64,000 nt of DNA from Knoellia koreensis. GTDB lineage: Bacteria; Actinomycetota; Actinomycetes; Actinomycetales; Dermatophilaceae. The stretch covers positions 736,976 through 800,975 of the forward strand of contig NZ_JABEPQ010000001.1 of assembly GCF_013041615.1 (NCBI RefSeq), written 5' to 3'. Position 1 is the stretch's first letter, and every line of letters starts with the position of its first letter. Positions 1 through 64,000 of the stretch are shown in pieces. Under the pieces are notes generated by a model. That model saw nothing but the letters and a program-made list of their open reading frames with translations. It did not search any database and was not told the origin of the DNA. The position numbers and the translations under genes were made by a program.

Positions 1-583
1 AGTCGAACTGGGGAGTGTTCAGGGCCGGCATCTGCACCATCGTGATGCGCACGTGGGAGCGGTCGTGCAGGAGCTCGCACCGCACTGACTCGGTGAAGCC
101 CTGGATGGCGTGCTTGGCGCCGCAGTAGACGCTCTGCAGTGGGATCCCGCGGTAGGCCAGGGCCGAACCGACCTGAACGATGACCCCGCGATCGCGAGGG
201 ACCATGTGCCGCAACGCTTCTCGGGTGCCCCAGACGAACCCGAGGTAGGTGACCTCGGTCGCCCGGCGGAACTCCTCCGGCGTGACCTGGGTGAACGGCG
301 CGAATACCGACGCGAAGGCCACGTTGACCCACACGTCCACCGGTCCGAGCTCGCGTTCCACGCGCTGCGCGGCCGCCTCGACGGCGTCCGCATCGGCGAC
401 GTCGACGCTGATCGGCAGCGCCGTGCCACCGGCGTCCCGGACCTCGCCGGCCGCGCCGTCCAGTCCCTCGACTCCCCGTGCCAACAGCGCCACCGCTGCA
501 CCCGTCCGGGCGAACTCGACCGCGGTCGCCCTGCCGACGCCTGCGCTGGCACCGGTCACGACGACCACCTTGCGGGGGCTCAC
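1..583 (-). CDS. SDR family oxidoreductase (3' end outside window)
   Basis: Short-chain dehydrogenase with a Rossmann fold; substrate unknown. The N-terminus has the cofactor motif TGASAGVG and the later part has the catalytic pair YCGAK within the stretch around AYRGIPLQSVYCGAKHA. About 194 residues are visible; related actinobacterial proteins usually run past 300. The usual NNAG-type motif reads NVAF here. GTG start at 583-581 overlaps the stop of the upstream GH13 gene (GTGA), so the two are probably co-translated. It is the last visible gene of the sigma factor-GH13-SDR operon. The family call is firm; the role is not. Confidence 0.85.
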   Translation of the reverse strand, partial: MSPRKVVVVTGASAGVGRATAVEFARTGAAVALLARGVEGLDGAAGEVRDAGGTALPISVDVADADAVEAAAQRVERELGPVDVWVNVAFASVFAPFTQVTPEEFRRATEVTYLGFVWGTREALRHMVPRDRGVIVQVGSALAYRGIPLQSVYCGAKHAIQGFTESVRCELLHDRSHVRITMVQMPALNTPQFD

Positions 584-2259
584 ACGCCCACCCCGGCAAC
601 GTCCGTCGCGTCGGAGGCGTCGAGCCGCAACCACCGATATCCCCACGGTTCCAACGGGATCCGGCTCGGACTTGCCTTGGCCTCGCCCCCGGGGCTGAGC
701 AGGTCGACGACGGTCTCGGAGTCCAGGTCGACCCCCGCCGAGGCGTCGGGAACCCTCCGCTCGGACACGTTGTGGAACGTCACGACTCGCTGCCCGAGCC
801 AGGTCGAACGCAGGCCGAGCACCGAGTCCTCGGCCGTCGGCAGCACCTCTGTGGCGCCGAACCCGATCTCCGCGCACTCGCGTCGGACGTGGACCAGCTG
901 ACGGGTGGCCTCCAGCAACGAACCGGCCACGTGCCGCTGGGCGGCGACCGACGCGCCCTCCCGGACATTCCCGGCACGCCTCGCCCAGCGGTGCGGCGAC
1001 GCGTCGGAGAAGCCCCCGTCATCCTCCTCCGTCCACCGCATCGGCACCCGAGTCGCGAGCCGGCCCGGCAGCTCCAGGTCGTCGGCCAGCCCGACCTCGT
1101 CGCCGTACTGCAGCACGGGAACCCCGGGGATCGCGTGGACGAGTGAGTGCACCAGTCGGATGCGGTCGTCGTCGTGGCGCAGCAGCGATGCGAGGCGACG
1201 TCGCAGCCCGCGCCCGTAGATCCACCCCACCCCGTCGGGCGCGAACACCGCCCGCACCTGCTCGACCTCGTCGGCGGTGAGCACCTGTTCGAGGGTGAGC
1301 TCGTCGTGGGTACGGGCGAACACGGCATACGAGCAGGAGTCCGGCACGTCGGGGCGTGCCCGGATGGCCCGCTCAAGGGGTGCCGCACTCCCCTGCGCCA
1401 GCCCCAGCCACACGGCGCCCTGCACCGCGAAGTCGAACAGCAGCTGCACCTCCGACTCGTCGTGTGGACAGTTGGGGTCGCCGAAGAACGCCCGCTGCTC
1501 GTCCGGCGGCAGGTTGGCCTCGCCGAGCAGCACCGCGTCGCCGCGGCGCCGGCTGAGGAAGTCGCGGACCGTGCGCAGGTCGCGGTGGCGTCGCCGGCCG
1601 TCGTCACCGCGGCCGGGCTTGTCGATGAGGAACGGCAGGGAGTCGACGCGGAAACCGTCGAGCCCCAGCTCGAGCCAGAACCCGATGACCTTGTGGATCT
1701 CGTCGTGCACCTGCGGGGTCCCGAACGCGAGGTCGGGCTGGAAGTCGTGGTACCGGTGGAAGTACCACTCCCCGGCCTCCTCGTCGAAGGTCCACGTCTC
1801 CTTCTGCTCTCCCGGGAAGATCGGCTCCGGTCGGTCGCTCGGGGGTGGCTGCTCGCGCGACCAGACGTAGTAGCCGCGCCGCGGGCTGCGCGCGTCGGAC
1901 CGGGCTTCGCGGAACCACGGGTGCTCGTCGCTCGTGTGGTTGACGACGAGGTCCATGACGACGCGTATGCCGTGGTCGTGCGCCGTGCGCACCATCTCCA
2001 CCAGGTCGCCGGCCGTGCCGAGCCTGGGATCGACCCCGTAGTAGTCGGCCACGTCGTACCCGTCGTCCCTCATCGGCGACGGGTGGAACGGCGTGAGCCA
2101 CAGGCAGCCGATGCCCAGCTCGCGCAGGTACGACATCCGCCGGGTCAGCCCGGTGAAGTCGCCCCAGCCGTCACCGTCGGAGTCGCTGTAGGTCTTGACG
2201 TCGAGTGCGTACCAGACCGTGTTGCGCCACCAAGCATCGCTGACTGCCTTGTCCGCCAT
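580..2259 (-). CDS. GH13 alpha-amylase family enzyme, trehalose-synthase-like
   Basis: A 559-residue cytosolic-looking glycoside hydrolase family 13 protein with no signal peptide. The TIM-barrel signatures are present: GDGWGDF near residue 30, the DLVVNH region near 103-108, nucleophile Asp206 in DGFRVD, acid/base Glu247 in LLGEAN, and transition-state Asp319 in RTHDE. Overall sequence resembles trehalose synthase (maltose alpha-D-glucosyltransferase) and related intracellular enzymes, so interconversion of maltose-type sugars and trehalose is the likely role; a plain alpha-glucosidase is also possible. It starts 6 bases after the sigma-factor stop, and its stop overlaps the SDR start, indicating one operon. 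The link to a stress-type sigma factor fits an osmolyte role (inference). Confidence 0.85.
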   Translation of the reverse strand: MADKAVSDAWWRNTVWYALDVKTYSDSDGDGWGDFTGLTRRMSYLRELGIGCLWLTPFHPSPMRDDGYDVADYYGVDPRLGTAGDLVEMVRTAHDHGIRVVMDLVVNHTSDEHPWFREARSDARSPRRGYYVWSREQPPPSDRPEPIFPGEQKETWTFDEEAGEWYFHRYHDFQPDLAFGTPQVHDEIHKVIGFWLELGLDGFRVDSLPFLIDKPGRGDDGRRRHRDLRTVRDFLSRRRGDAVLLGEANLPPDEQRAFFGDPNCPHDESEVQLLFDFAVQGAVWLGLAQGSAAPLERAIRARPDVPDSCSYAVFARTHDELTLEQVLTADEVEQVRAVFAPDGVGWIYGRGLRRRLASLLRHDDDRIRLVHSLVHAIPGVPVLQYGDEVGLADDLELPGRLATRVPMRWTEEDDGGFSDASPHRWARRAGNVREGASVAAQRHVAGSLLEATRQLVHVRRECAEIGFGATEVLPTAEDSVLGLRSTWLGQRVVTFHNVSERRVPDASAGVDLDSETVVDLLSPGGEAKASPSRIPLEPWGYRWLRLDASDATDVAGVGV

Positions 2260-2265
2260 GGGATC

Positions 2266-3165: not shown

Positions 3166-4029
3166 TCAGCCCTGCCTCGCCGACGTGGCGATCCCGTCGA
3201 GGATGTGCCGTTGCGCGAAGGCGAACGCGATGATCATGGGCAGCGTCGCGATCAACGTGGCCGCCATCGCGATCTCCCAGTGGTACTCCCCGCTCAGGGC
3301 ATAGGAGTCGATGATCTGCTTGAGCCCGCGGGGCATGGTGAAGTACTCCGGCGTCTGCAGGTAGATCAACGGCTTCATGAGGTCCGACCAGCTCGCCTTG
3401 AGCTCGAAGACGAAGACGATGACCAGCGCGGGGCGGCACAGCGGCAGCGCGATCCGCCGGAACAGCCCGAAGTAGCCGCACCCATCGACCCGCGCTGCCT
3501 CGAACAGCTCGCGTGGCACGCCCAAGAAGAACTGGCGCAGCAGGAAGATGTAGAACGCCGTCCCGAAGAGGTTCTGGCCCCAGAGCGGCACCTGGGTGTC
3601 GACGAGGCCGATGCGGTTCCAGATCAGGTAGACCGGGATCATCGTCACCGCGCCCGGCAGCATCATCGTGGACAGCACCAGCCCGAACAGCAGCCCGCGG
3701 AACCGGAACCGGAAGTAGGCGAACCCGAACGCCACGAGCGCACTCGAGATGGTCACGGCCGTCGCCGCCATGATGCCGACCGTGACCGAGTTGAGGAGCC
3801 AGCGCAGCACCGGTCCGGCCTGCCACACCTCGACGAAGTTCGACCACTGCACGTGCCGGGGGATCAGCCGGTTGTCGAAGACCTCCGACTTCGGCTTGAG
3901 GGACGCGCTCACCAACCACAGCAACGGATAGACGAACGCGGCCGTCGCCGCGAGGAGCACGACGAGGTATGCCGCGTGAGCCAGCCGGGGCGCGAGTCGC
4001 GGGCTCGGTGCCAGACCGGGCCCGCTCAC
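3166..4029 (-). CDS. Carbohydrate ABC transporter permease (MalG type)
   Basis: A 287-residue inner-membrane permease with about six transmembrane segments, CUT1 family. The EAA loop that docks the ATPase is visible as EAARVDGCGYFGLFRRIALP. It pairs with the permease encoded just upstream and the binding protein before that. GTG start at 4029 overlaps the upstream stop (GTGA). No ATPase gene is present in the locus, as is common in actinobacteria where a shared MsiK-type ATPase serves many transporters. The sugar is unknown. The 114 bases to the sigma gene separate the two operons. Confidence 0.92.
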   Translation of the reverse strand: MSGPGLAPSPRLAPRLAHAAYLVVLLAATAAFVYPLLWLVSASLKPKSEVFDNRLIPRHVQWSNFVEVWQAGPVLRWLLNSVTVGIMAATAVTISSALVAFGFAYFRFRFRGLLFGLVLSTMMLPGAVTMIPVYLIWNRIGLVDTQVPLWGQNLFGTAFYIFLLRQFFLGVPRELFEAARVDGCGYFGLFRRIALPLCRPALVIVFVFELKASWSDLMKPLIYLQTPEYFTMPRGLKQIIDSYALSGEYHWEIAMAATLIATLPMIIAFAFAQRHILDGIATSARQG

Positions 4030-5033
4030 CGCTGGTCCCCTTCGTAGTGGACGAACCGGTTGCCGACACGCAGCTGCACGAGCGTGATGAGCAGGATGAT
4101 GACGAACAGCAGCCACGCCATCGCCGACGCGTAGCCCATCTTGAAGTACTGGAACGCGTTCTGGAACAGGTAGACCATGAAGACGAGGGACTCGTCGGAG
4201 GCCGTCGCCTTCTGCTGCGGCCCATAGAACATCGTGTACGCCTGGTCGAACATCTGAAGCGCCGCAATGGTGTTCGTGATGACGGTGAAGAACACCGCGC
4301 CCGAGATCATCGGCAACGTGACGTGGAAGAACCGCCGCACCGGCCCCGCCCCGTCGAGCTGCGCCGCCTCGTAGAGCTGCCGCGGCACGTTCTTGATCGC
4401 GGCCAGGTAGATGACGATCGTGCCGCCCATTGACCACAGGCTCACCATCGCCAGGGACGGCTTGAGCCAGTTGGGGTCGGTGGTCCAGTTGGGGCCGTCG
4501 ATGCCGAACCAGCCGAGCACGGTGTTGACCAGGCCCGTCTGCCCGTTGAGCAGCAACAGGAACAGGGCTGCGGCCGCGACTGCCGGCGTCATCTCGGGCA
4601 GGTAGAACGCTGTCCGGAAGAAGCCACTCGCGCGGCCCACGCGCGCCAGCAGCATCGCCAGCCCGAGCGCGACGCACGTCCCGACGGGGACGAACAACGC
4701 GGCATACACGAAGGTGTTGAGGAGGGACTGCGCGACGCGGGGGTCCTCGAGCAGCTGGCGGTAGTTGTCGGCGCCGACGCCGCGTGTCTGCCCCACCAGG
4801 GAGTAGTCCGTGAACGACAGGACGAGGCTGGCCAGCATCGGGCCGGCCGTGAAGACGAGGAACCCGACCACCCACGGCGCAATGAACATCCACGCCGCGC
4901 GCGTCTCCCGCGCCTGGTTGGACTGCCCTCGACGACCACCGCGCGCAGCCAGCCTGCCCGGGAGCGGTAACGAGGCGCGCGAGCGACCATGCGCTTCGCC
5001 GAGCGACTCGCGCGGCGCCAGCAGCTCACCCAC
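4026..5033 (-). CDS. Carbohydrate ABC transporter permease (MalF/UgpA type)
   Basis: A 335-residue membrane permease with a basic cytoplasmic N-terminus, then about six transmembrane segments starting around AAWMFIAPWVVGFLVF, and an EAA loop reading YEAAQLDGAGPVRRFFHVTLP. The start was set at GTG 5033-5031, which overlaps the binding-protein stop by 8 bases; longer reading frames run deep into the upstream gene. It forms the transmembrane channel with the downstream permease. Confidence 0.88.
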   Translation of the reverse strand: MGELLAPRESLGEAHGRSRASLPLPGRLAARGGRRGQSNQARETRAAWMFIAPWVVGFLVFTAGPMLASLVLSFTDYSLVGQTRGVGADNYRQLLEDPRVAQSLLNTFVYAALFVPVGTCVALGLAMLLARVGRASGFFRTAFYLPEMTPAVAAAALFLLLLNGQTGLVNTVLGWFGIDGPNWTTDPNWLKPSLAMVSLWSMGGTIVIYLAAIKNVPRQLYEAAQLDGAGPVRRFFHVTLPMISGAVFFTVITNTIAALQMFDQAYTMFYGPQQKATASDESLVFMVYLFQNAFQYFKMGYASAMAWLLFVIILLITLVQLRVGNRFVHYEGDQR

Positions 5034-6417
5034 GGTTGGCCTTGTCGAACGCGGTCTTGGCCTCCTCCTGGGCGCGGTCGAGTGCCTGTTGTGCTGGCTG
5101 ACCACCCAGCGCACGCGCGACGGCGCTCTTCCACGCCGCGTCGATCTCGGCGCCGGCCGGGGAGGGGTTGAGGGCCGTCGCCTTGTCGAGCGTGCCGTAG
5201 AACGTCTTGATGGCCTGGTCGAAGCCGGGGTTGGGAGCAGTGGTGAGGTACTTGTCGCGGATCTGGTCGTCGGCCGCCTTGTTGGCGGTGAACAGGCCGG
5301 TGAAGAAGCTCTTGTCCTGCTTGACCTTGGCCATCCGAGCCTCGGCTGCCTTCATCCACGTGTCCGTCGACGTCATCGTCTTCATCCACGCACAGGCTGC
5401 CTTGGGATTCTTGGCACCCTTGGGGATGGCCCAGGTCGAGCCGCCGAGGGTGCTGACCTGGGCGCCCTCTCGGTTGGTGACGGGCGTGGCCGCGAGCTGG
5501 AGCCCTGCGGGGATGGAGTCGCGCAGCACGTTGACGTACCAGTTCTCCATGGGGAAGGCCGTGATCGTGCCCTTGGTGAGCGGGTTGGTGTCACCGAAGA
5601 TGTCGAAGGAGTCGCGGAACGCCTTGAAGTTGGTCCAGCCGCCCTGGTCCTTGACGAGCTTCACCGCGTAGTCGAGGGCTTCGACCGCCTTGGGGTCGTT
5701 GAGGTTCGGGGAGCCGTCGTCCTTGACCAGGGTGGCTCCGTTGATCTGCGCCCAGAGGGGGAACGAGTCGGGCAGCTTCGGGTCGTAGCCGACGCGCTTG
5801 ATCTTGCTGCCGGACTGCTCGTAGAGCTTCTTTGCGGTCTGCTCCAACGCGTTCCAGTCCTTGGTCTGGATCTGCGCGGGGTCGATGCCGGCCGCCTTGA
5901 GCGACTTGGCGTCGACCAGGTTGACCGCGACGATGTAGAACTCAGGGATCCCGTAGACGGTGTCCTTGAACGTCACTGACTGCACCGCGGCCGGGCGGTA
6001 CTGCCCCATGTCGATCGACTGGCCCTTGACGCAGTCGGTCAGCGGTTGCACCACGCCTTTGGCTGCGTAGGTACCGATGAGCTGGCGGTCCATGTAGACC
6101 AGGTCGGGTGGGTTGCCGCTCGAGAGCGCGGTGAGGAACTGCTGCGCGTCGAACTCGCCCTTGTTCTGGGCCACCTCCACCTTGGGGTATGCCGCCTTGA
6201 AGGCGGCGATGCGCGACTGGCCCACCTCGTCCTCGCCGCCGAAACCCATGATCGACAGGCGACCCGACGGCATACCGCTCATGGCACCTCCCGACGAGCC
6301 TCCCGAACTGCCGTCGTCGCCGCCGCCCGAATCCTTCGACCCGACCCCCGCGCACGCGGTGAGGGTCAGGACCCCCGCCAGGGCGAGTGCTGCCGTGGTC
6401 GTGCTGCGTCGAGACAT
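5026..6417 (-). CDS. Extracellular sugar-binding lipoprotein of ABC transporter
   Basis: A 463-residue CUT1 solute-binding protein. The N-terminus is a lipoprotein signal peptide with lipobox LTAC (Cys22), followed by a Gly/Ser-rich linker, so the mature protein is tethered to the outer face of the membrane. ATG at 6417 has GGGAGGTGGAG upstream; an in-frame codon at 6444 is less likely. It leads the three-gene transporter operon. Upstream are two LacI-type operator-like sites and a SigF-type promoter, so control by sugar and stress is likely. Ligand unknown. Confidence 0.92.
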   Translation of the reverse strand: MSRRSTTTAALALAGVLTLTACAGVGSKDSGGGDDGSSGGSSGGAMSGMPSGRLSIMGFGGEDEVGQSRIAAFKAAYPKVEVAQNKGEFDAQQFLTALSSGNPPDLVYMDRQLIGTYAAKGVVQPLTDCVKGQSIDMGQYRPAAVQSVTFKDTVYGIPEFYIVAVNLVDAKSLKAAGIDPAQIQTKDWNALEQTAKKLYEQSGSKIKRVGYDPKLPDSFPLWAQINGATLVKDDGSPNLNDPKAVEALDYAVKLVKDQGGWTNFKAFRDSFDIFGDTNPLTKGTITAFPMENWYVNVLRDSIPAGLQLAATPVTNREGAQVSTLGGSTWAIPKGAKNPKAACAWMKTMTSTDTWMKAAEARMAKVKQDKSFFTGLFTANKAADDQIRDKYLTTAPNPGFDQAIKTFYGTLDKATALNPSPAGAEIDAAWKSAVARALGGQPAQQALDRAQEEAKTAFDKANRG

Positions 6418-8041: not shown

Positions 8042-8749
8042 ATGAACCCCACTGGACCCTCGGGTGAAGTCGCCGGACCGGGCTTGGCGCGTGAGTTCGC
8101 CGAGCTGGCTCGGGTGCTGCAGGCCGAGAGCGGTCGGCTCGGCACCCTGCAGACGGTGTGCGAGCTCGCCGTGAAGGTCATCGACGCCGACCACGCCTCG
8201 GTGGCGATCAGGCGGGGTGCGGCCTTCCGGACCGTGGCTGCCACCAGCGACGTGCCCGAGCTCGTCGACCGGCTCCAGCTCGAGACGGGCGAGGGTCCTT
8301 CCGTCGACCGCGTCGCCCACGAGTCGCTGGTGAGCGAGGACCTCGCCGCCGAGCCCCGCTGGCCCGACTTCGGCCGACGGGCCGCCGACGAGGCCCACGT
8401 GCGCAGCATGCTGTCCAACCGGCTCTTCGTGCGCGACGGGTCGATCGGGTTGCTCAACGTGTATGCCGCGCGGCCGCAGGCCTTCGACGAACGTGACGTG
8501 GTGGTCGCCGGGGTCTTCGCCGCCCACGCCGCCGTGGCCCTCCAGGCCGCCGAGGAGCAGGAGCGCGCCGACAACCTGGAGATCGCCCTGCGCAACAGCA
8601 GGCGCATCGGCACGGCCATCGGCATCCTCATGCATGAGCGCCGGGTCGACGAGCAGGGTGCGTTCGACCTGCTCCGCCAGCGCAGCCAGCAGACCAACCG
8701 CAAGCTCGCGGACATCGCCGACGAGGTTGTCTACACCGGCACCCTCTGA
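8042..8749 (+). CDS. GAF and ANTAR domain protein (RNA-binding antiterminator type)
   Basis: A 235-residue cytosolic regulator. An N-terminal GAF sensor domain covers about residues 20-165. A C-terminal ANTAR domain follows (RRIGTAIGILMHERRVDEQG, then DLLRQRSQQTNRKLADIAD). ANTAR domains bind paired hexaloop hairpins in nascent RNA and prevent termination. ATG at 8042 has GGAG about 8 bases upstream; the longer frame to 7886 runs through the promoter. It is the first of three such paralogues within 10 kb. Confidence 0.88.
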   Translation: MNPTGPSGEVAGPGLAREFAELARVLQAESGRLGTLQTVCELAVKVIDADHASVAIRRGAAFRTVAATSDVPELVDRLQLETGEGPSVDRVAHESLVSEDLAAEPRWPDFGRRAADEAHVRSMLSNRLFVRDGSIGLLNVYAARPQAFDERDVVVAGVFAAHAAVALQAAEEQERADNLEIALRNSRRIGTAIGILMHERRVDEQGAFDLLRQRSQQTNRKLADIADEVVYTGTL

Positions 8750-9670: not shown

Positions 9671-10510
9671 TCAGTCCACGTCGTGCGGGTGCCGCAGCAC
9701 GGCATACTCCCCCGCCCGCAGCTCTCCCCGCTCCCAGTCGATCTCGGCGACGTCACCGAGGTGCAGGTGCCGGTCGCTGCGGTGACAGGCCCGCAACAGC
9801 CAACGCACCAGTCGCGGCCCCTGGGGCGTGAGGGTGTAGCCGAGCTCCTGGCCGAGGTGGCGCGGTGAACAGATGACGTCGAGCACCCGCAACGGGCCGA
9901 GCCCGTCGCCGTGTCCGTGCTCGCGCCCACCGACACGTTCAGCGGTCACCTCGATGACCTCACCCAGCGCGCCGCCGTCGGACGTCAGAGCCCGCAGCGC
10001 CAGCAGCTCGCTCACCGTGTGCTGCCCGTCGCGCAGGGGGACCCCGATGCCGTCGGCCGGACGCAGGTCCGGGCGGTCGGGACGGTCCGGGTCGGACTCG
10101 CCACCCATGGCACCGGGGATGCGCGCCAGCACGTGCCTTCGCAACCACAGCTCCAACCGCTGCTCCTGCGCCAGGATGCGGCCTGCCCGCGTGTCGACGC
10201 GTACCGCGGAGTCGAGCCGCACGACGCGCTCGAGCGGGACCACCAGCTGGCGCGGTTCCGGCTCGGTGCGCAGCCGTCGCCAGGCGTCACCGAGCAGCCG
10301 CCCACCCCACCCGCCGAGACGGCCACCCAGGGCTGCCGGCCCGCTGAGGAACCCCACGACGAACAGTCCCTCGGGGGTCTCCTCGAGCGCGAGGTCGTCG
10401 ACGTTGCCCAGCAGCTGTCCCTGCTCCCCCACGATCTGGTGGTCGAGCAGGCGCAGCACCACACCGAACCGGTCGGCGTCGACCTCCCAGCCGCCCGTCG
10501 CCGGCGTCAC
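9671..10510 (-). CDS. PRC-barrel-like protein partnered with NRAMP-like transporter
   Basis: A 279-residue soluble protein without signal peptide or membrane segments. Two stretches look like PRC-barrel folds: an N-terminal DHQIVGEQGQLLGNVDDLAL and a C-terminal RHLHLGDVAEIDWERGELRA. The middle is charged and proline-rich. GTG at 10510 overlaps the stop of the transporter gene, so the two are translationally coupled. It may sense or modulate metal transport (inference from context). It is the last gene of the operon. Confidence 0.65.
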   Translation of the reverse strand: MTPATGGWEVDADRFGVVLRLLDHQIVGEQGQLLGNVDDLALEETPEGLFVVGFLSGPAALGGRLGGWGGRLLGDAWRRLRTEPEPRQLVVPLERVVRLDSAVRVDTRAGRILAQEQRLELWLRRHVLARIPGAMGGESDPDRPDRPDLRPADGIGVPLRDGQHTVSELLALRALTSDGGALGEVIEVTAERVGGREHGHGDGLGPLRVLDVICSPRHLGQELGYTLTPQGPRLVRWLLRACHRSDRHLHLGDVAEIDWERGELRAGEYAVLRHPHDVD

Positions 10511-24002: not shown

Positions 24003-24041
24003 GAGCACCCTGGAAGGTGCAGGTTTGTCCTGCTCCCGGAG

Positions 24042-28838: not shown

Positions 28839-28841
28839 CCC

Positions 28842-47432: not shown

Positions 47433-47494
47433 CGCTAGCTGGACGCGACACCCCGCGCGGCGCGGCGTTCACCGTGATAACGCGCCACCCGGCA

Positions 47495-47500
47495 TACCCT
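47495..47500 (+). promoter_or_regulatory. -10 box of a leaderless promoter
   Basis: TACCCT six bases before the GTG at 47507. It overlaps a GTATGCCG-type octamer (CGGCATAC). Confidence 0.45.
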
Positions 47501-49433: not shown

Positions 49434-49563
49434 CGGGCCGCGGCCGCGGTGACGGCTCTCACGCCGGGGCCCCGGTGACCGACACGGTTACTCGCGGGTA
49501 GCATCGCAGGCGTACGCACCGGCATACCGGTGTCTCACCCACACCCCACAAGGGAGGCCATCC

Positions 49564-50781: not shown

Positions 50782-52883
50782 GCGACGAGAAGACGTTCGA
50801 AGAGGTCGTGACCCACACGCCCGTGCGCGACATCGCGCTGCCGGGAGGCGCGGGCACCCTTGCCCTCATCACCCTCGACAACGGGTTCGACCACACCAAG
50901 CCGAACACGTTCGGTCCGGCCACCATCGAGGGGCTCAGCACGGTCGTCGCCGACCTGCGCAAGCGTGCCGAGGCCGGTGAGATCCAGGCCGTCGGCATCA
51001 CCGGCAAGCCGTTCATCTTCGCCGTCGGTGCCGACCTCAAGGCCGTGTCGCAGGCGCACACCCGCGAGCAGGCGCTCGAGGTCGCCCGAGCCGGCCACGC
51101 GGCATTCGGCGCCATCATGGACTTACCGGTGCCGACCTTCGCGTTCGTCAACGGTGCCGCGATGGGTGGCGGCGTCGAGATCGCGCTGGCGGCCGACTAC
51201 CGCACCATCTCCGCGGGCGTGCCCGCGCTGGCGCTGCCCGAGACGTTCCTCGGCCTTGTGCCCGGGTGGGGCGGCTGCTGGCTGCTGCCGAACCTCGTCG
51301 GCGTGCAGAACGCGCTCAAGGTCATCATCGACAACCCCATGAACATGAACCGCATGCTCAAGGGGCCGCAGGCGTTCGAGCTCGGGATCGCCGACGCGAT
51401 GTTCGAGCCTGCCGACTTCCTCGAGGAGTCGCTGCTGTGGGCCGCAGGCGTCGTCAAGGGTGACACCACGGTGCAGCGGCCCGAGGTCGACCGCGACGAG
51501 GCGTCGTGGGAGGCGGCCGTGAAGACGGCCAAGGGGGTCGTCGACCTCAAGACGGGCGGGCAGGCGCCCGGTCCGTATGCCGCGCTGAAGCTGGTCTCGG
51601 CCGCGCGCACGGCTTCGCGGGACGAGGGTTTCGCGGCGGAGGACGAGGTGCTCGCCGACCTGGTCATGGGTGACGAGCTGCGCGCAGGCCTGTACTCGTT
51701 CGACCTCGTGCAGCGGCGGGCCAAGCGCCCTGCCGGCGCGCCCGACAAGGCGCTGGCGCGCAAGGTCACCAAGGTCGGCATCGTCGGCGCCGGGCTCATG
51801 GCGAGCCAGCTCGCGCTGCTGTTCGCCAAGAACCTCGAGGTGCCGGTCGTGATGACCGACCTCGACGAGGAGCGCGTCGCCAAGGGCGTGGGCTACGTCC
51901 ACGGCGAGGTCGACAAGCTGCTCGCCAAGGGCCGTCTCGGCGCCGACAAGGCCAACCGGCTCAAGGGCCTGGTGACCGGCGCGACGTCCAAGGACGGGTT
52001 TGCGGACGCCGACTTCGTGCTCGAAGCGGTCTTCGAGGAGATGTCGGTCAAGAAGCAGGTCTGGCAGGAAGTGGAAGCAGTGGTCGAGCCGACTGCGGTC
52101 CTGGCGACCAACACGAGCTCGCTGTCGATCACCGAGATGGCGTCCGACCTGGAGCACCCCGAGCGGGTCGTGGGCTTCCACTTCTTCAACCCGGTGGCGG
52201 TCATGCCCCTGCTCGAGATCATCAAGGGCGAGCAGACCGACGACGCTACTCTCGCAACGGCTTTCGCCACCGGCAAGGGCCTGAAGAAGACGACGATCCT
52301 CGTCAAGGACTCCCCCAGCTTCATCGTCAACCGGCTCCTCGGCCGGTTCATGGGCGAGGTCGCGAAGGTCGTCGACGAGGGGACGCCGATCGAGGTCGCG
52401 GACAGGGCGTTCGCCGGTCTCGCGCCGATGCCGCCGTACGTCCTGCTCGGTCTCGTCGGCCCGGCGATCGCGTTGCACAACAACGAGACGCTGGCCAAGG
52501 CCTTCCCCGACCGCTTCTACGTGTCGGAGAACCTGCGCAAGCTGGTGGCCGCCAAGAAGCCGGCGATCTACATCTGGCCCGAGGGCAAGCCGGTCGTCGA
52601 CCCCGAGGTCGAGGCGCTGTTCGACAAGCCGGCCGACCCGGTGGTGCTGACCACGGAGGAGGTCCGCGAGCGGGTGCTCGGTGTCCTCGCCGACGAGGCA
52701 CGCCGGATGCTCGACGAGGGCGTCGCGCAGGCCCCGATGGACCTCGACCTGGCGATGATCACCGGTGCCGGGTTCCAGTTCTGGAACGGCGGCCTCACCC
52801 CGCTGCTCGACCGTGAGGGTGTGTCCGAGAAGGTCACCGGCCAGCGGTTCCTGCCGCCGGGTGTGGCCAGCGTCCCCGCCTGA
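50778..52883 (+). CDS. fadB: Beta-oxidation multienzyme FadB (enoyl-CoA hydratase / 3-hydroxyacyl-CoA dehydrogenase)
   Basis: 701 residues. N-terminal crotonase domain (about 1-300; oxyanion-hole FVNGAAMGGGVEIALA, LPETFLGLVPG), then the NAD-binding dehydrogenase domain (GIVGAGLMASQLALL near 335; HFFNPVAVMPLLEII) and the C-terminal 3HCDH domains. Together with FadA it completes the beta-oxidation cycle. A large hairpin at 52931 follows. Confidence 0.95.
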   Translation: MSDEKTFEEVVTHTPVRDIALPGGAGTLALITLDNGFDHTKPNTFGPATIEGLSTVVADLRKRAEAGEIQAVGITGKPFIFAVGADLKAVSQAHTREQALEVARAGHAAFGAIMDLPVPTFAFVNGAAMGGGVEIALAADYRTISAGVPALALPETFLGLVPGWGGCWLLPNLVGVQNALKVIIDNPMNMNRMLKGPQAFELGIADAMFEPADFLEESLLWAAGVVKGDTTVQRPEVDRDEASWEAAVKTAKGVVDLKTGGQAPGPYAALKLVSAARTASRDEGFAAEDEVLADLVMGDELRAGLYSFDLVQRRAKRPAGAPDKALARKVTKVGIVGAGLMASQLALLFAKNLEVPVVMTDLDEERVAKGVGYVHGEVDKLLAKGRLGADKANRLKGLVTGATSKDGFADADFVLEAVFEEMSVKKQVWQEVEAVVEPTAVLATNTSSLSITEMASDLEHPERVVGFHFFNPVAVMPLLEIIKGEQTDDATLATAFATGKGLKKTTILVKDSPSFIVNRLLGRFMGEVAKVVDEGTPIEVADRAFAGLAPMPPYVLLGLVGPAIALHNNETLAKAFPDRFYVSENLRKLVAAKKPAIYIWPEGKPVVDPEVEALFDKPADPVVLTTEEVRERVLGVLADEARRMLDEGVAQAPMDLDLAMITGAGFQFWNGGLTPLLDREGVSEKVTGQRFLPPGVASVPA

Positions 52884-52930: not shown

Positions 52931-52993
52931 GTATGCCGACCGGCCGGCAACGAGTGGAGGCGCGCCCCACTCGTTGCCGGCCACGCGGCATAC
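52931..52993. terminator. Large inverted repeat after fadB, ends are GTATGCCG octamers
   Basis: GTATGCCG (52931-52938), 3 bases, a 16-bp perfect stem (52942-52957 with 52967-52982), 9-base loop, 3 bases, CGGCATAC (52986-52993). The outer octamers pair with each other. Probably the fadAB terminator, with no T-run. Confidence 0.7.
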
Positions 52994-53140: not shown

Positions 53141-53917
53141 ATGCCGATGACGCCCGCGCTGCTCGACCTGTCCGGACGCACCGCGCTCGTCACGGGGGCC
53201 GCCAGCGGCATCGGGGCCGCCTGCGTCGACCGGCTCGCCGCCGCGGGCGCCAAGGTGTACGCCGTCGACCGCGACTCCGCGGCCCTCGACGAGCTGGGTG
53301 CGCGGCTGGGTGGCGCATCGAGCGTGGTCCCCCTCGTGACGGACCTGGCCGACCTCGATGCGGTCGACGCCCTGCCAACCGACGCGGACGTGCTCGTCAA
53401 CAACGCGGGCATCCAGCACGTCAGCCCGATCGAGGAGTTCCCGACCGACACCTGGGACCTCATCATCCGGCTCATGCTGACCTCGCCCTTCCGCCTCGTC
53501 CGGCGCACGCTCCCCCACATGTACGCCCAGGAGTGGGGCCGCATCATCAACGTCTCGAGCGTCCACGGCCTGCGCGCCAGCGCCTACAAGTCCGCCTACG
53601 TCGCGGCCAAGCACGGCCTCGAGGGGCTGTCGAAGGTGACCGCCCTCGAGGGTGGCGAGCACGGCGTCACGAGCAACTGCGTCAACCCGGCATACGTGCG
53701 AACTCCCTTGGTGGAGAAGCAGATTGCCGACCAGGCCCGCACGCACGGCATCGACGAGGACCAGGTCGTCGAGCAGGTCATGCTCGCGCCGGTGGCGCGC
53801 AAGCGGCTGGTCGAGCCGGCCGAGGTGGCTGAGCTCGTGGCCTTCCTGTGCAGCCCGGCGGCGGAGTCGGTGACCGGGTCGTCGTTCTCCATGGATGGCG
53901 GATGGACGGCCCACTGA
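53141..53917 (+). CDS. 3-hydroxybutyrate dehydrogenase
   Basis: 258 residues, classical SDR: TGAASGIG, NNAGIQHVSPIEEFP, catalytic Ser in INVSSVHGL and the YVAAKHG pair, then the C-terminal SSFSMDGGWTAH. The sequence is characteristic of D-3-hydroxybutyrate dehydrogenases, which oxidise hydroxybutyrate to acetoacetate. Context beside fadAB and a PucR-like regulator fits. ATG at 53141 with a leaderless promoter. Confidence 0.9.
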   Translation: MPMTPALLDLSGRTALVTGAASGIGAACVDRLAAAGAKVYAVDRDSAALDELGARLGGASSVVPLVTDLADLDAVDALPTDADVLVNNAGIQHVSPIEEFPTDTWDLIIRLMLTSPFRLVRRTLPHMYAQEWGRIINVSSVHGLRASAYKSAYVAAKHGLEGLSKVTALEGGEHGVTSNCVNPAYVRTPLVEKQIADQARTHGIDEDQVVEQVMLAPVARKRLVEPAEVAELVAFLCSPAAESVTGSSFSMDGGWTAH

Positions 53918-55836: not shown

Positions 55837-57676
55837 CCACCGCGTCGGCCGTCAGGCCGATCTCCTCGAGCACCTCGCCGCGCGACGCGTGGTCGAGGAA
55901 CCGCTTCGGTATGCCGTGCACGTGCACCGGCACGTCGATGCCCGCCTGGCGCAGCGCGAGGGTGACGGCCGCGCCGATGCCACCGCTCTCGAGGTTGTCC
56001 TCGACGACCGCGACCGCGCCGGCCGACCGGGTCAGCTCGACGAGGTCGTCGCTCACCGGCAGCACCCACCGCGGGTCGACCGCCGTGACGGAGTGGCCCT
56101 GCGCCTCGAGCTTGGCCGCGACATCGACCGCCATCGACGCGAACGACCCGACGCCGACCACCAGCAGGTCGCACGAGTCCGGCGACGTCTCGTGCAGCAC
56201 GTCGACCGTGCCGGCCTGCCGCAGGGCGGGCACCGCCGGACCCACGTCACCCTTGGGGAAGCGCAGCACCGTCGGGCCGTCGGACACCTCGAGCGCCTCG
56301 CGCAGCTGCACCCGCACCTGCTGCCCGTCCCGGGGGGCTGCGAGCCGCAGCCCGGGCACGATCGAGGAGATCGTCATGTCCCACATCCCGTTGTGCGACG
56401 GGCCATCCGAGCCTGTGACACCCGCCCGGTCGAGTACGAAGGTCACGCCCGCCTTGTGCAGCGCGCAGTCCATGAGCAGCTGGTCGAACGCCCGGTTGAG
56501 GAACGTCGCGTAGACCGCAACCACGGGGTGGAGCCCAGCGAACGCGAGCCCGCTGGCCATCGTCACGGCGTGCTGCTCGGCGATGCCGACGTCGAAGACC
56601 CGGTCGGGGTAGGCCGCGGCGAAGCCGTCGAGCCCGACGGGGATGAGCATGGCGGCCGTCAGCGCGACGACGTCGTCGCGCTCCTTACCGACCTGCACCA
56701 TCTCGTCGTTGAACTCGTCGGTCCAGATGCGACCCGACACCTCGAACGGCAGCCCCGTCTCGGGGTTGATCTTGCCGATGCCGTGCATGTGGTCGTTGAG
56801 GTCGTCGAGGGCGTGCTGGTACCCGCGCCCCTTCTGGGTGATGACGTGGACCAGGACCGGGCCGCCGAAGGACCGCGCACGTCGCAGCGCCTGCTCGAGC
56901 GCCTGCTCGTCGTGGCCGTCGACCGGTCCGAGGTACTTCAGGCCCAGGTCCTCGAACATCCCTTGCGGCGCAACGATGTCCTTGAGGCCCTTCTTCATCC
57001 CGTGCAGGGTCTCGTACATCGCCCCACCCACGACCGGCGTGCGCGAAAGGGTGTTCTTGCCCCAGTCGAGGAAGCGCTCGTAGCCGCGGGTCGTGCGCAG
57101 TGTCGCCAGGTGGTCGGCGAGCCCGCCGATGGTGGGCGCGTAGGACCGCTCGTTGTCGTTGACGACGATGGTCAGGGGCAGGTCCTTGTCGGCGGCGATG
57201 TTGTTGATCGCCTCCCAGGCCATGCCGCCGGTGAGTGCCCCGTCACCGATGACCGCGACGGTATGCCGCCCACGCTCGCCGCGCAGGCGCCTCGCCTTGG
57301 CGATGCCGTCGGCCCACGACAGGGCCGTGGAGGCGTGCGAGTTCTCGACGACGTCGTGGTCGGACTCCGAACGGCTCGGGTAGCCGGACAGGCCGCCGGA
57401 CTTCTTGAGCCGGCTGAAGTCGTGCCGTCCGGTGAGCAGCTTGTGCACGTAGGACTGGTGGCCCGTGTCGAAGACGATCGTGTCGTTCGGGCTGTCGAAG
57501 ACGCGGTGCAGCGCGATGGTCAGCTCGACGACGCCGAGGTTGGGGCCCAGGTGGCCGCCGGTCTTGGACACCTCGGCCACGAGGAACGTGCGAACCTCCT
57601 CGGCCAGCTCCGTGAGCTGCGCAGGGCTGAGCGCCTTGAGGTCGGCCGGGCTCGTGATGGTCTCGAGCAGTGCCAC
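55808..57676 (-). CDS. dxs: 1-deoxy-D-xylulose-5-phosphate synthase Dxs
   Basis: 622 residues, thiamine-diphosphate enzyme. ThDP site [13 protein letters not shown] and the following [24 protein letters not shown] near the N-terminus; [18 protein letters not shown] in the central domain; transketolase C-domain at the end. Makes DXP, the first step of the MEP isoprenoid route. GTG at 57676 with AAAGGA upstream. Convergent with the regulator. Confidence 0.96.
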
Positions 57677-57716: not shown

Positions 57717-59777
57717 CTAAGCGGAGTGGACCACCGACACCGAGTCGGGCAGGCCGCTGACCTCCACCTTCCCGGCCTGGTCGACCACGACCTCGAACGG
57801 CACGGTCCCCCACCGCAGCCCACGCACGCTCAACGCGCCGAAGGGTGCCGTCGCCGGTGGCCGCACCATGAGCCGGCCACCGGGGAAGTCCGCCTCGAGG
57901 CCGAGCGCAGAGGTCAGGAGGGCACCGACCGACGCCGCCGACCAGGCCTGGGGCCGGCACGAGGCGGGGTACGGCGCCGGGGCGTCGATGAGCGGCGTGC
58001 CGGAGTAGAGCTCGGGCCAGCGGCGGTCGAATGCCGCGCCGGAGGCGACGAGGGTCTGTGCGACAGCGCCGGCGAGGTCGCCGAGACCCTCACGGGACAG
58101 GCCGATCGCGGCGATGGCCGTGTCGTGGGTCCAGATCGACCCGGTGTGGTAGCCGATCGGGTTGAACCCGCCGGTGTCCGTCGACATCGTGCGGATGCCG
58201 AACCGGTCGAGCAGCCCGGGCGAGGTGAGCCGGTCCGCGACGACCTTGGCCTCGTCGGGTGTCAGCGCGCCGGTGCCGAGGACGTGGCCCATGTTCGAGC
58301 CCACGCCGTCGACCGGCGCAGCCCCACCGTCGAGCGCCATCGCGAGGTAGCGACCGTCGGCGTCCTCGACCCAGAAGCGGTCGCGGATCCGCTCGGTGAC
58401 GTCCTGCGCCTCGGCTCGCCAGCGGGCAGCCCCTTCGACGCCCAGTGCGTCGAGGAGGTCAGCCGCGCCGGAGAGCGCCTCCACGGCATACGCCTGGGCC
58501 TCGACGAGCGCGATGGGCGCCTCGGCGACGCGGCCGTCCCGCATGCGCATGGAGTCGCCGGAGTCCTTCCAGCCCTGGTTGGCGAGGCCGTGACCGCTGG
58601 TGTCGATGTACTTCAGCAGCCCGTCGGAATCGGGTCGGCCGGGCCCCGTGAGCCAACCGAGTGCCGCCTCGAGGTTGGGGAGCAGCGCGCGCACCTGGTC
58701 CTCGGGCAGGCCCCAGCGCCAGGCGTCGACGAGGAGACAGACCCACAGCGCCGTCGCGTCGACGGTGCCGTAGTAGAGCGGCGGGAGCTGCATGGTCTCG
58801 CCGGGCGCCCCGTATGCCGTGCGGCGCACCTCGTGCGCGATCTTGCCGGGCTGTTCGGCCGTCTCGGTGTCGTCCTTGGTGCCCTGACGTCGCGCGAGGG
58901 CGCGCAGCGTGCCGGCGGCGAGCTCGGTGCCGAAGGGCAGGGTCAGCCGCGCGGCCCAGATCGAGTCACGACCGAAAAGCGTGAGGTACCAAGGGGTTCC
59001 GGCAGCAGCGAACACGTCGTCCGGACCCATGGGGTCACGCAGCAGCAGGTGCCTCAGGTCGGCCAGCGACTCGGTCACGAGCGGTCCGAGACGCGGGTCG
59101 TCGGCCTCGACCGCGACGTCGTCCCATGCGACGGCGTCGAGCCCGGGGTCCGCGTCGAGCGCGCTCGTCTGGCGCCGGGTGGTCTCGACGGAGACGGTGA
59201 GCTCGAGCGCGCCACCGGGCGCCAGCTCGAAGGCCTGCTCGGCCTTTCCCACGCCACCGTCACAGGTCGTCGACGCGTCGACCCGGATGCTCACCGTGTG
59301 CCGTGGCGTGTCGATCCGCAGGCCCCCTCCCTCCGCGCCCACGGGGAGCAGCGGTCCGTCGAGGCGGCCCGACTTGACCGTGGCGATGTCGGCACCGTCG
59401 GCGCCGAGCTCGACCCGCAGCACCCCCGTCACCGGCGTCGCCGCGCGCGACACGACCCGCACCGTCTCGGCCAGGCCGCCGTCAACCAGCTCGCGGGAGC
59501 GCTGCACCTCGACCGTCGGGTCGGCACCGGGGTCGCCGAGGTCCCTCGCCGAGGAGAGGAACTGCGCACGACCGGCACGCGCCTGCCCGCCCACGGCGCT
59601 GGGCTCGACACCGCTGACCGTCACGACCAGCCGGCTGAGCACGCGTTCGTCGTCGACGTAGAGGCCCTGGGCCGTGCCCGTCCGGACCTGCCCGTCCTGC
59701 GCGGAGAGCAGGGTCACGTTGCCCCGCACCGTGGTGGCCAGGTCGTGCAACCACGGTTGGCGGTACGGACTGGCCAT
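57717..59777 (-). CDS. Glycogen-debranching-type glucosidase (amylo-alpha-1,6-glucosidase-like)
   Basis: 686 residues. N-terminal beta-sandwich debranching domain (about 1-225) and a C-terminal (alpha/alpha)6 barrel with [27 protein letters not shown] and [16 protein letters not shown]. Actinobacterial homologues act on branched glucans or oligosaccharides. No signal peptide. ATG has AAGGAG upstream. It is divergent from the LacI gene; the palindrome between them should control both. Confidence 0.85.
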
Positions 59778-59924: not shown

Positions 59925-61052
59925 GTGGCGACGAGACCGGCACGGCAGGGCGATCGGGTGACGATCGTCGACGTCGCCGCGGCGGCCGGCGTCTCCCGCC
60001 AGACGGTGAGCAACGCGCTCAACAAGCCGCACCTGCTCGCGGCCGAGACCCTGGAGAAGGTCCACGCCGCCATCAACGACCTCGGCTTCGCCCCGAACGT
60101 GGCAGCCCAGCAGCTGCGCCGCCGGCGGGCCAGCGCGTACGGCTTCGAGGTCAACCCCTCCGGCGCCGGGCGCATGGGGCACATCCTCGACGGCTTCCTC
60201 GTCGAGATGACCGCGGCCGCTCCGGACCACGCCGCCCACCTCGTGACCTTCGCCCCCGAGCTCGACCGGCTGATCGAGGGCTACGACCGGCTCCTCGGCA
60301 CCGGCCTCGTCGACGGCTTCGTCCTCGGCGACACCCGCCACGGTGATCCGCGGCCCGACTGGCTCCTCGAGCAGGGCGTGCCGTTCGTGACGTTCGGGCG
60401 GATCTGGGACCGGCCCGACCTCGACGGCTGGGTCGACGTCGACGGCCGCGCCGGCGTGCGCCTCGGTGTCGAGCACCTGCTGTCGCAGGGGTACGAGCGG
60501 GTCGCCTGGCTCGGCTGGCCCGACGGCTCCCCCGTCGGTGACGACCGCCGCGCCGGGTGGCTCGACGGGCTGACCGCCTCGGGCCACGACGCCGATGCGT
60601 CGATGGCCGTCGAGTCGGTGCAGGACCTCTCGCAGGCCACTGCCGCGGCCGAGCGGCTGCTGCGCGGGCTGAAGGGCCGCGGCGCCATCGTCTGCGCATC
60701 GGATCTGTTGGCCCTCGGCGCAATCCGCGCGATCCGCAACCACGACCTGCGGCTCGGCACCGACATCGGCGTCGTCGGCTTCGACGACACCGACGTGGCC
60801 GAGGCCCTCTCCCTCACCAGCCTGAGACAGCCGCTGCGGCCCGCGGCGGAGGCCGCCTGGCGCATCCTCGCCAGCGGCCACCAGAGCCGGCCACACGGCA
60901 TACCCGGCGCCGCGGCCACGGACGACGAGGGCGACGGCCACGCCGAGAGGACCGCCCTCCTGCCACCCACCCTGACCATCCGTGCGAGCAGCACACCAGA
61001 GCCGTCCGGCACCCCCACCGGACGCACCACCCGAAGGAGCAGCACATCATGA
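59925..61052 (+). CDS. LacI-family transcriptional regulator
   Basis: 375 residues. N-terminal LacI helix-turn-helix (VTIVDVAAAAGVSRQTVSNAL) and hinge, then the periplasmic-binding-like effector domain (about 70-335). The last about 40 residues are an added low-complexity tail. GTG at 59925 has AAGGGAG upstream. Its stop overlaps the binding-protein start, so repressor and transporter share a transcript. The effector is probably the transported sugar. Confidence 0.93.
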   Translation: MATRPARQGDRVTIVDVAAAAGVSRQTVSNALNKPHLLAAETLEKVHAAINDLGFAPNVAAQQLRRRRASAYGFEVNPSGAGRMGHILDGFLVEMTAAAPDHAAHLVTFAPELDRLIEGYDRLLGTGLVDGFVLGDTRHGDPRPDWLLEQGVPFVTFGRIWDRPDLDGWVDVDGRAGVRLGVEHLLSQGYERVAWLGWPDGSPVGDDRRAGWLDGLTASGHDADASMAVESVQDLSQATAAAERLLRGLKGRGAIVCASDLLALGAIRAIRNHDLRLGTDIGVVGFDDTDVAEALSLTSLRQPLRPAAEAAWRILASGHQSRPHGIPGAAATDDEGDGHAERTALLPPTLTIRASSTPEPSGTPTGRTTRRSSTS

Positions 61053-62364: not shown

Positions 62365-62403
62365 CACCCGGCCTACCCACCCGGCAGACCCACCCGGCAT
62401 ACC
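62365..62403 (+). repeat. Three tandem 13-bp repeats
   Basis: CACCCGGCctacc, CACCCGGCagacc, CACCCGGCatacc in direct succession just before the permease ribosome site. The last copy contains a GTATGCCG-type octamer on the complementary strand. Confidence 0.75.
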
Positions 62404-62414
62404 CAGGAGAAGTG

Positions 62415-63488
62415 ATGAGGAGAACCACCCCCGGTGGCAAGGGAATTCGCGGCCGCGAGGGCATCGCCGGATGGCTGTTCGTCAGCCCGATGATCATCAT
62501 CCTCGGCCTGTTCCTCGTCATCCCGGTCGTCATGGCCCTGTGGGTGAGCCTCACCAACTGGAACGGCTCGGTGAACCCGTTCCAGGGCGGCCCGGGCGCG
62601 CAGTTCGTGGGGGTGCGCAACTACACCGACCTGTTCGCCAAGGACGGCCTGACCCGCTCGAACTTCATGCAGTCGATCGGCAACACGTTCTGGTACGTGC
62701 TGTTCGTCGTGCCGCTGCAGACCGCACTCGCGCTCGGCCTGGCGCTGCTGGTCAACACCAAGATGCTCAAGGCCAAGGGCTTCTTCCGCACCGCCTTCTA
62801 CTTCCCGTCGGTCACGAGCTCGATCGCGATCTCGACGGTCTTCCTCTTCCTGTTCTCCTCCACCGGTGCCGTCAACGCGCTCCTCGGGGCGATCGGCCTC
62901 GGGCAGCCCAACTGGTTCAGCGACTCCCGCGGCCTGGTCCACCTGCTGTTGGGTGCCGTCGGCGTCGACAACCCGTCGTGGGCGCAGGGTGAGGTCCTCG
63001 GGCGCACGCTGTGGGACTGGTTCTCGGGCCCGTCGGTGGCGCTGACGGTCATCATCTTCCTCGTCGTCTGGACGACCTCGGGCACGTTCATGCTGATGTT
63101 CATCGCGGCACTGCAGGACCTGCCGGTCGAGGTCGACGAGGCGGCCGCGCTCGACGGCACGAGCGGCTGGCAGAAGCTGCGCCACGTGACGATCCCGATG
63201 ATCCGGCCCACGCTCTTCCTCGTCATCACCCTCGGCCTCATCGGCACGTGGCAGGTGTTCGACCAGATCTACGTCATGGGCAAGGGCAACCCGGACGGCA
63301 CGACGCTGACCCCGGCCTACCTCAGCTACCAGCAGAGCTTCGGCAACTTCAAGTACGGCTCGGGTGCGGCCATGGCGTTCGTCGTCTTCGCGATCATCGT
63401 CGTCCTCACCCGCATCCAGCGCTGGGCTCTCTCCGACAAGGACGAGCGCCGACCACTCCTGCGCCGGCGGAAGGCGGTCACCCGATGA
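62415..63488 (+). CDS. Carbohydrate ABC transporter permease (MalF type)
   Basis: 357 residues, about six transmembrane segments after a short basic N-terminus; EAA loop DEAAALDGTSGWQKLRHVTIP. A roughly 40-residue insertion (NWFSDSRGLVHLLLGAVGVD to GRTLWDWF) lengthens an extracytoplasmic loop. ATG at 62415 has AGGAGAAGTG upstream; the adjacent GTG at 62412 is an alternative. Confidence 0.92.
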   Translation: MRRTTPGGKGIRGREGIAGWLFVSPMIIILGLFLVIPVVMALWVSLTNWNGSVNPFQGGPGAQFVGVRNYTDLFAKDGLTRSNFMQSIGNTFWYVLFVVPLQTALALGLALLVNTKMLKAKGFFRTAFYFPSVTSSIAISTVFLFLFSSTGAVNALLGAIGLGQPNWFSDSRGLVHLLLGAVGVDNPSWAQGEVLGRTLWDWFSGPSVALTVIIFLVVWTTSGTFMLMFIAALQDLPVEVDEAAALDGTSGWQKLRHVTIPMIRPTLFLVITLGLIGTWQVFDQIYVMGKGNPDGTTLTPAYLSYQQSFGNFKYGSGAAMAFVVFAIIVVLTRIQRWALSDKDERRPLLRRRKAVTR

Positions 63489-64000
63489 ACCGCCGCGTCT
63501 CCCCCGTCAAGCAGGTCGTCCTCTACGTGGCGCTGGTGCTCTTCGCGATCCTGTTCATCTACCCGTTCTTCATCCAGATCGCGACGTCGTTCAAGACCGA
63601 CCCCGACGCCGCCGCCCACCCGTTGTCGCTCATCCCGAACCCGTTCGACCTGCACGCGTGGAAGCAGATCTTCGGCCAGGGCTCGGCGTCCGTGCCGTTC
63701 CTCACCTGGATGAAGAACTCGGTCGTCATCGCCGTGGTGGTGACGGTCGCGCGAGTCTTCCTCGACAGCCTCGCCGGATATGCGTTGTCCCGCTTGCGTT
63801 TTCGCGGCCGAGGCTTCGTCTTCGCCGCGCTCCTCGCGGTGATGAGCGTGCCCAGCGTCGCGCTGTTGATCCCCAAGTTCCTCATGGTGAACTACCTCGG
63901 GATCTACGACACCTACACCGCGATGATCCTGCCCCTGATCGTCGACGGCGCGGGCGTCTTCATCATGAAGCAGTTCTTCGACTCGGTGCCAGTCTCCATC
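63485..64000 (+). CDS. Carbohydrate ABC transporter permease (MalG type), 3' end outside window
   Basis: First 172 residues only. Transmembrane segments near VLYVALVLFAILFIYPFFIQI and WMKNSVVIAVVVTV. ATG overlaps the previous stop (ATGA). Pairs with the upstream permease; the EAA loop lies beyond the window. Confidence 0.9.
   Translation, partial: MNRRVSPVKQVVLYVALVLFAILFIYPFFIQIATSFKTDPDAAAHPLSLIPNPFDLHAWKQIFGQGSASVPFLTWMKNSVVIAVVVTVARVFLDSLAGYALSRLRFRGRGFVFAALLAVMSVPSVALLIPKFLMVNYLGIYDTYTAMILPLIVDGAGVFIMKQFFDSVPVSI

Follow-up and report, generated by a model that had tools for sequence, protein, structure and literature searches.

The 64,000-nucleotide stretch of the Knoellia koreensis genome analysed here (NCBI RefSeq assembly GCF_013041615.1, contig NZ_JABEPQ010000001.1, positions 736,976 to 800,975 of the forward strand; hereafter the window) raises the question of why one asymmetric octamer, GTATGCCG, recurs throughout its length on both strands. 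The initial annotation had described it as an iterated word of the class of DNA uptake sequences (DUS) or of the highly iterated palindrome 1 (HIP1), an assignment that is borne out by an enrichment beyond Markov and codon models. As its origin we consider, with about even prospects, a DUS-like self-DNA word that would be read strand-specifically during uptake or the following recombination. Exact counting detects 27 copies on the plus and 26 on the minus strand of the window, about one per 1.2 kb, in close agreement with the 27 and 25 counted previously, and the earlier random-model figure of about two per 64 kb is matched by a zero-order expectation of 2.2 for both strands summed. In the entire genome of 4,282,418 bases (4.28 Mb, denoted G000), 1983 plus-strand and 2003 minus-strand copies add up to 3986, one per 1.07 kb, compared to 54 + 60 = 114 for the reversed word that was used as control. 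The word is therefore free of the strand bias that the annotation had found lacking and, as expected for DUS and for uptake signal sequences (USS), strongly over-represented genome-wide on both strands. It is usually followed by C (27 of 53 window sites) or T (17 of 53) and then by G (42 of 53), as had been noticed.

The excess persists in both comparisons that the annotation had recommended. Another 400 kb of G000 contain 394 copies compared to 8.2 expected from a second-order Markov model, and coding DNA contains 297 compared to 12.4 (standard deviation 2.6) after shuffling of synonymous codons, where GTATGCCG ranks first by ratio and by z among octamers with at least 25 copies. Conversely, GTCGACGA and CTCGTCGA, which with 60 and 52 copies in the window are equally frequent against a base-composition model, are absent from the 12 top words by ratio or z in the same shuffle. 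The word is also sharp, with all eight bases being of relevance, since the 24 words with one mismatch stay near expectation (0 to 57 copies in the 400 kb, at most about twice their own expectation), and certain of these are low, such as GTATGGCG with 0 compared to 8 and GTCTGCCG with 18 compared to 39 expected copies.

By our own gene calls on the window, 46 of the 53 sites reside inside and seven outside of genes. The genic sites are distributed over several frames, as was claimed, including TAT-GCC (24, encoding Tyr-Ala), GCA-TAC (12), GGC-ATA (7), ATG-CCG (2; 6268-6275 and 40299-40306, both minus) and CAT-ACC (1; 57261-57268, plus). At such GC content, TAT and ATA belong to the disfavoured codons. 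All six positions where ATA had been recognized are in the GGC-ATA frame (19972-19979, 21454-21461, 45830-45837 and 55909-55916 on the plus, 32841-32848 and 60896-60903 on the minus strand), which also holds the site at 1965-1972 (plus). The 36 of 46 genic sites that encode Tyr-Ala or Ala-Tyr could raise the suspicion that the GC-rich genome simply has a bias in codon pairs, dipeptides or base composition, but the synonymous shuffle rules out codon bias as cause of the excess and, with the word being denser between genes than within and lacking in motif-poor relatives, we assign a negligible probability to this explanation. The raised ratio of Tyr-Ala dipeptides to expectation is suggestive, with values, carrying no error estimate, of 1.27 in G000, 1.11 in G089, 1.06 in G178 and 1.14 in G012, compared to 0.86 in a motif-poor pool.

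Beyond the initial annotation, we observe, as the most informative feature of the word, that the spacing of sites depends on their relative orientation. In 464 kb of G000, where sites are on average 1.04 kb apart, 303 successive sites are of opposite and 143 of same orientation (36 and 16 in the window, where 22 opposite and 5 same pairs are found within 1 kb). Pairs in same orientation number 10 at 60-250 bp and 24 at 250-500 bp, compared to 49 and 68 in opposite orientation. Relative to expectation, same-orientation pairs are reduced to 0.24, 0.45 and 0.63 at 60-250, 250-500 and 500-1000 bp, whereas the respective values for opposite pairs are 1.20, 1.26 and 0.96. To assess significance, the orientation labels were shuffled 2000 times and the shuffles giving as few same-orientation pairs were counted, which for the three bins were 0, 0 and 10 in G000 and 3, 75 and 0 in G089, another genome with GTATGCCG. 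In genomes carrying the one-base variant GGATGCCG, the counts are 35, 569 and 8 (G178) and, with a weaker effect, 20, 49 and 12 (G044). In these four genomes, which cover both dialects of the word, a site tends to have no neighbour of same orientation within about 1 kb, a restriction that does not apply to opposite orientation. A purging of direct repeats was rejected as cause, as among 87 octamers with 200-450 sites in G000 only GTATGCCG and three words overlapping it have a ratio to expectation of less than 0.89, the median being 1.10. Since the effect is limited to one orientation, neither the loss of direct repeats nor a general spacing offers an explanation, whereas redundancy towards a one-way reader would fit. 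The presence of a separate, evenly spaced set of sites on each strand points to a reading of the word in one direction.

The family in question is named Intrasporangiaceae in NCBI and Dermatophilaceae in some schemes and several records, and the closest named relatives of the dxs gene of the window are from Pedococcus and Phycicoccus (86-88% protein identity), with Pedococcus as the presumed genus of the window. Many of its members carry hundreds to thousands of copies of GTATGCCG. These number between 625 and 3986 in all 11 genomes of the genus, and at least 400 are found in 106 of 186 family genomes (counted by eye) with a maximum of 4724 in G110. In an order-wide sample of 396 genomes, 35 of which belong to Intrasporangiaceae (by eye), none of the 361 genomes from other families reaches 400 copies, the highest count being 180 compared to 195 for the reversed control. 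Within genera, the word can be lost abruptly, as in G018 with 37 copies compared to 1251-1660 in four sisters and in G124 with 50 compared to at least 394 in 30 relatives.

Replacement words in motif-poor genomes were sought in 20 stretches (20-kb samples), of which 17 were analysed after dropping three below 4 kb, and GGATGCCG and GTACGCCG were then counted genome-wide in the 186 family genomes. As expected for DUS and USS, related species contain a dialect: GGATGCCG is present in at least 1500 copies in seven of the 186 genomes (G027, G028, G044-G047 and G178) from three genera, the next highest count being 1336 in G158. Two of the seven, G046 and G047, contain in addition about 1200 copies of GTATGCCG each, as if in transition between words. 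In the set of named loci, GGATGCCG is the top octamer of Humibacillus sp. DSM 29435 (L024; 19 compared to 1.85), and its excess in a codon-aware comparison is 280 to 56.5 in G178 and 220 to 35.8 in G044.

We also considered GTACGCCG, which reaches at least 1000 copies in 11 of 186 genomes and exceeds synonymous expectation in coding regions (143 compared to 29.3 in G099, 46 compared to 17.5 in G012), as third dialect. This was rejected because its intergenic excess is absent in G099 (0.49 compared to 0.82 per kb) and hardly any in G012 (0.66 compared to 0.51 per kb, 6 sites), because exclusion below 1 kb is not significant in the small samples of 156 sites in G099 (615, 100 and 889 of 2000 shuffles) and 52 sites in G012 (992, 741 and 347), and because other GTAC words are raised alongside. 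In G012, the bin at 2-3 kb is low (4 same compared to 16), and the palindromic form of GTACGCCG is rare (5 compared to 156 in G099). In the GTATGCCG-rich genomes G120, G121 and G122, GTACGCCG occurs 58, 46 and 33 times compared to 134, 123 and 160 for the reversed control, as if near matches had been converted to GTATGCCG.

Further raised words came up in single samples. A locus of Flexivirga meconopsidis (L030) contains in 22 kb 11 copies of GTATGACG, compared to 0.3 expected, beside 9 of GTATGCCG, a lead to a possible further dialect. GGTCTACG is found 23 times compared to 1.9 in a 60-kb sample of the motif-poor G018 and CGATGTCG 30 times compared to 4.4 in a 40-kb sample of the likewise motif-poor G101.

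Sites are distributed unequally between and within genes. The density of GTATGCCG in G000 is 1.87 per kb in intergenic compared to 0.85 in genic regions, and intergenic density is the higher one in four sampled genomes with GTATGCCG or GGATGCCG, latter showing 2.17 compared to 0.80 per kb in G178 and, as slight difference, 1.56 compared to 1.31 in G044. Between genes of G000, the consensus extends to GGTATGCCGCGTGG, while genic sites, in their several frames, show a weak flanking consensus. Pairs with a loop of up to 45 bases are preferentially head-to-head, with 15 compared to 3 tail-to-tail in 464 kb of G000 and 12 compared to 5 in G089 (one compared to none in each of the GTACGCCG genomes G099 and G012), and of the 21 pairs of neighbours that lie no more than 60 bases apart in the 464 kb, 13 are intergenic and head-to-head. 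Such a pair is located at 52931-52993 of the window, between the genes at 50778-52883 and 53141-53917, with its left arm at 52931-52938 (plus) and its right arm at 52986-52993 (minus) enclosing a further paired stem that appears terminator-like by eye. Other sites outside called genes are at 3967-3974 (plus), 47490-47497, 49520-49527 and 62395-62402 (all minus). A mobile hairpin element of small size containing GTATGCCG could, by spreading, have produced intergenic head-to-head hairpins with the common arm GGTATGCCGCGTGG in G000, but only 15 of these are found among 447 sites in 464 kb, most sites being genic, which makes this a very improbable source of the word.

The two longest gaps without GTATGCCG in the 464 kb extend over 6.8 and 8.9 kb. 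The former, at 25293-32080 and the longest of the window, follows a site outside called genes at 25285-25292 (minus) and lies on a prophage-like stretch with matches to the Pfam families Phage_capsid and HNH; the gene for a phage integrase at 22510-23631 is outside of the gap and contains the site at 22746-22753 (plus). The latter spans a defence-like island at L104:4051-8750 (G000:C1:865051-869750), which encodes a KAP ATPase/NTPase, an IrrE-like peptidase, a multiubiquitin protein and a ThiF/DUF6791 protein. Import-like DNA is hence, on these two cases, without the word. The region 22510-32080 as a whole is prophage-like or a remnant, with few called coding sequences in between and two sites (22746 and 25285) in 9.6 kb.

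The conservation of sites, which the annotation had proposed to examine, was followed by aligning 14 to 17 kb to relatives at about 80% identity. The motif-rich loci L002, L003, L005 and L008 have retained 7/13, 7/11, 5/11 and 4/9 sites and the motif-poor L001 and L004, at about equal identity, 1/12 and 2/13. In shorter alignments, the values are 1/3, 1/3, 2/6, 2/3 and 2/5 for the rich L009, L014, L017, L038 and L053 and 0/4 for the motif-poor L006. Sites are kept more often in motif-rich relatives, a contrast suggesting that their turnover may follow the state of the genome, but not more often than control octamers, which are kept at similar rates (e.g. GTCGACGA with 6/15 in L002 and 9/16 in L003), and conservation alone is therefore no proof of selection.

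As the annotation had advised to look for competence genes, we surveyed the machinery for DNA uptake and recombination. ComEC was detected in 180 and TadE in 181 of 186 family genomes, and ComEA adjoins ComEC in 16 of 18 loci, the other two containing neither (20 loci were taken and two not aimed at comEC left out). Natural competence is hence represented by comEC, comEA and one component of a Tad pilus, although their presence is not diagnostic. The absence of ComEC, ComEA or TadE was rejected as cause of motif loss, as there is no contrast between rich and poor genomes, and a type IVa pilus was judged improbable with PilM, taken as its sign, being found in only 7 of 186 genomes and its presence not following that of the word. 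RecC, present in 89 of 186, is unrelated to the word, on which grounds a RecBCD-Chi relationship was rejected: it is matched in G000 but in none of G001-G010, so that 10 of 11 genomes of the genus contain GTATGCCG without a RecC match, while 15 of the 16 genomes of g27 contain RecC without the word. For Chi, RecBCD would be expected wherever the word is enriched, which is not the case. As ComEC, ComEA and TadE are also found in motif-poor genomes, no tested gene explains the presence or absence of the word.

Iterated words of three kinds have been described, Chi, uptake words and HIP1 (PMC4390886). Uptake words are favoured by the density of GTATGCCG, its lack of polarity, the dialect, the inverted pairs and the gaps at import-like DNA. 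The DUS of Neisseriaceae are equally non-palindromic, occur about once per kb, with a spacing of 1.1 to 1.5 kb that is near the value in G000, and form dialects differing by few bases (PMC3630211, PMC2397512). They also form inverted intergenic pairs, reported as terminators in Neisseria (PMC2397512), are under-represented in strain-specific insertions, to which the gaps described above can be likened (PMC3630211, PMC2397512), and are not generally biased in orientation along the genome (PMC2346458, PMC1939737). Unlike DUS, GTATGCCG has an unrelated sequence and a Gram-positive host, in a family where PilM is confined to few genomes, and exclusion is limited to same orientation. The USS of Pasteurellaceae likewise occur in either orientation about 1 kb apart and form inverted pairs at gene ends (PMC7811141), but their uptake is reported as independent of orientation (PMC1939737), whereas the two orientations of GTATGCCG behave as separate sets. 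HIP1 of cyanobacteria (GCGATCGC) is likewise an octamer of unproven function iterated across one lineage, but it is a palindrome with a link to orphan methyltransferases (PMC4390886), whereas the reverse complement of GTATGCCG is a different word. The non-palindromic nature of GTATGCCG, the existence of a dialect differing by one base, the inverted pairs between genes and the two longest gaps, both resembling imported DNA, make a DUS-like word a better fit than a HIP1-like one.

We infer a bias in uptake or recombination together with a receptor and a drive. A putative receptor, probably tied to a route consisting of ComEA/ComEC and a Tad pilus, would favour conspecific DNA bearing the word, which would be taken up or recombined better. 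Micrococcus luteus requires a Flp (Tad-type) pilus for its transformation (PMC4322843, PMC6370729). With the word being read in one orientation, plus sites would serve one strand and minus sites the other, and biased exchange would multiply new sites until each strand holds one per about 2 kb, where an additional site on the same strand within about 1 kb would add little. Drift of the receptor would alter the word, giving rise to the GGATGCCG dialect, and the word would decay once the preference is lost. Several observations weigh against a DUS-like word. A drive acting on uptake of entire fragments predicts redundancy also of opposite neighbours, which is not seen, so that a reader would have to treat the two strands apart, and in H. 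influenzae uptake is reported to be independent of word orientation (PMC1939737). ComEC, ComEA and TadE are equally frequent in motif-poor genomes, and GTATGCCG is not better conserved than control octamers. In the GGATGCCG genomes, head-to-head pairs barely outnumber tail-to-tail pairs (8 compared to 6 in G178 and 8 compared to 7 in G044). Finally, no clear replacement word was found in the samples from the motif-poor g27 (16 genomes; G062) and g46 (12 genomes; G152, G163), with the same result for several motif-poor genomes in samples of 20-60 kb.

The exclusion between same-orientation sites, with orientations being independent, is predicted for a translocating one-way reader, and GTATGCCG could thus resemble Chi (GCTGGTGG and others), also an asymmetric octamer with orientation-dependent effect, as signal of a non-RecBCD enzyme such as a helicase-nuclease of the AdnAB/AddAB type. 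Such an enzyme would enter at a broken end and respond once to one orientation, and each strand would therefore need its own set. We regard this explanation as a rather unlikely but live rival. RecBCD itself is an improbable reader in view of the distribution of RecC, and Chi is polarised with replication, being in E. coli nearly confined to the leading strand (PMC8022716), whereas neighbouring copies of GTATGCCG tend to alternate and the sampled stretches show no strand bias (222 and 225 sites by strand in the 464 kb, counted without reference to the replication origin). The loss from whole genera and the dialect within one family would also be unexpected for a general repair signal. The other live rival, to which we assign a somewhat lower probability, is a HIP1-like strand mark. 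Here, an orphan methyltransferase or repair enzyme would modify one strand per site, each strand would need marks every 1 to 2 kb or so and biased repair would create new sites. A non-palindromic word would mark a single strand, so that both orientations would be needed independently, as is seen. For HIP1, a repair model and a connection with orphan methyltransferases have been put forward (PMC4390886). An A at position 3 is common to both dialects, and the scarcity of GTATGGCG, GTCTGCCG and, in G120-G122, GTACGCCG would fit a repair ratchet. Against it stand the palindromic nature of HIP1, which GTATGCCG does not share, and the one-mismatch words, which as a class are near expectation although near matches would be expected to serve as source for a repair ratchet.

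The sites of the window not yet listed are located on the plus strand at 2773-2780, 6187-6194, 8461-8468, 12090-12097, 13696-13703, 17673-17680, 18334-18341, 32382-32389, 34753-34760, 37067-37074, 38800-38807, 40599-40606, 43006-43013, 47635-47642, 48710-48717, 50088-50095, 51575-51582 and 58812-58819. Those on the minus strand are at 1323-1330, 4700-4707, 9700-9707, 13806-13813, 15151-15158, 16603-16610, 20050-20057, 21997-22004, 32081-32088, 36784-36791, 38223-38230, 40940-40947, 42123-42130, 43818-43825, 45698-45705, 53688-53695 and 58484-58491. The window also encodes a LigD-type DNA ligase at 38910-41087, which includes a polymerase domain and belongs to the bacterial end-joining proteins.

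The initial annotation knew of no such word in actinobacteria, and in the open-licence literature, to which our search was confined with closed papers and preprints outside its scope, none was found among the matches listed; a text match to the string GTATGCCG likewise returned no relevant title among the matches listed. Sequence-specific DNA uptake has, according to one account, been described from two Gram-negative families only (PMC12616744). With somewhat less than even confidence, we propose that the family represents a third independent lineage with self-DNA tags, the first in Gram-positives, employing a one-way strand-specific reader with an evenly spaced set of sites on each strand. 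If true, the self-tagging of genomes would have arisen again, in cells mostly devoid of the usual type IVa pilus. One octamer with its dialect and its natural losses would offer a simple handle for finding the receptor, and orientation-specific spacing, as purely genomic sign of a one-way reader, could be applied to Neisseria, Haemophilus and cyanobacteria.

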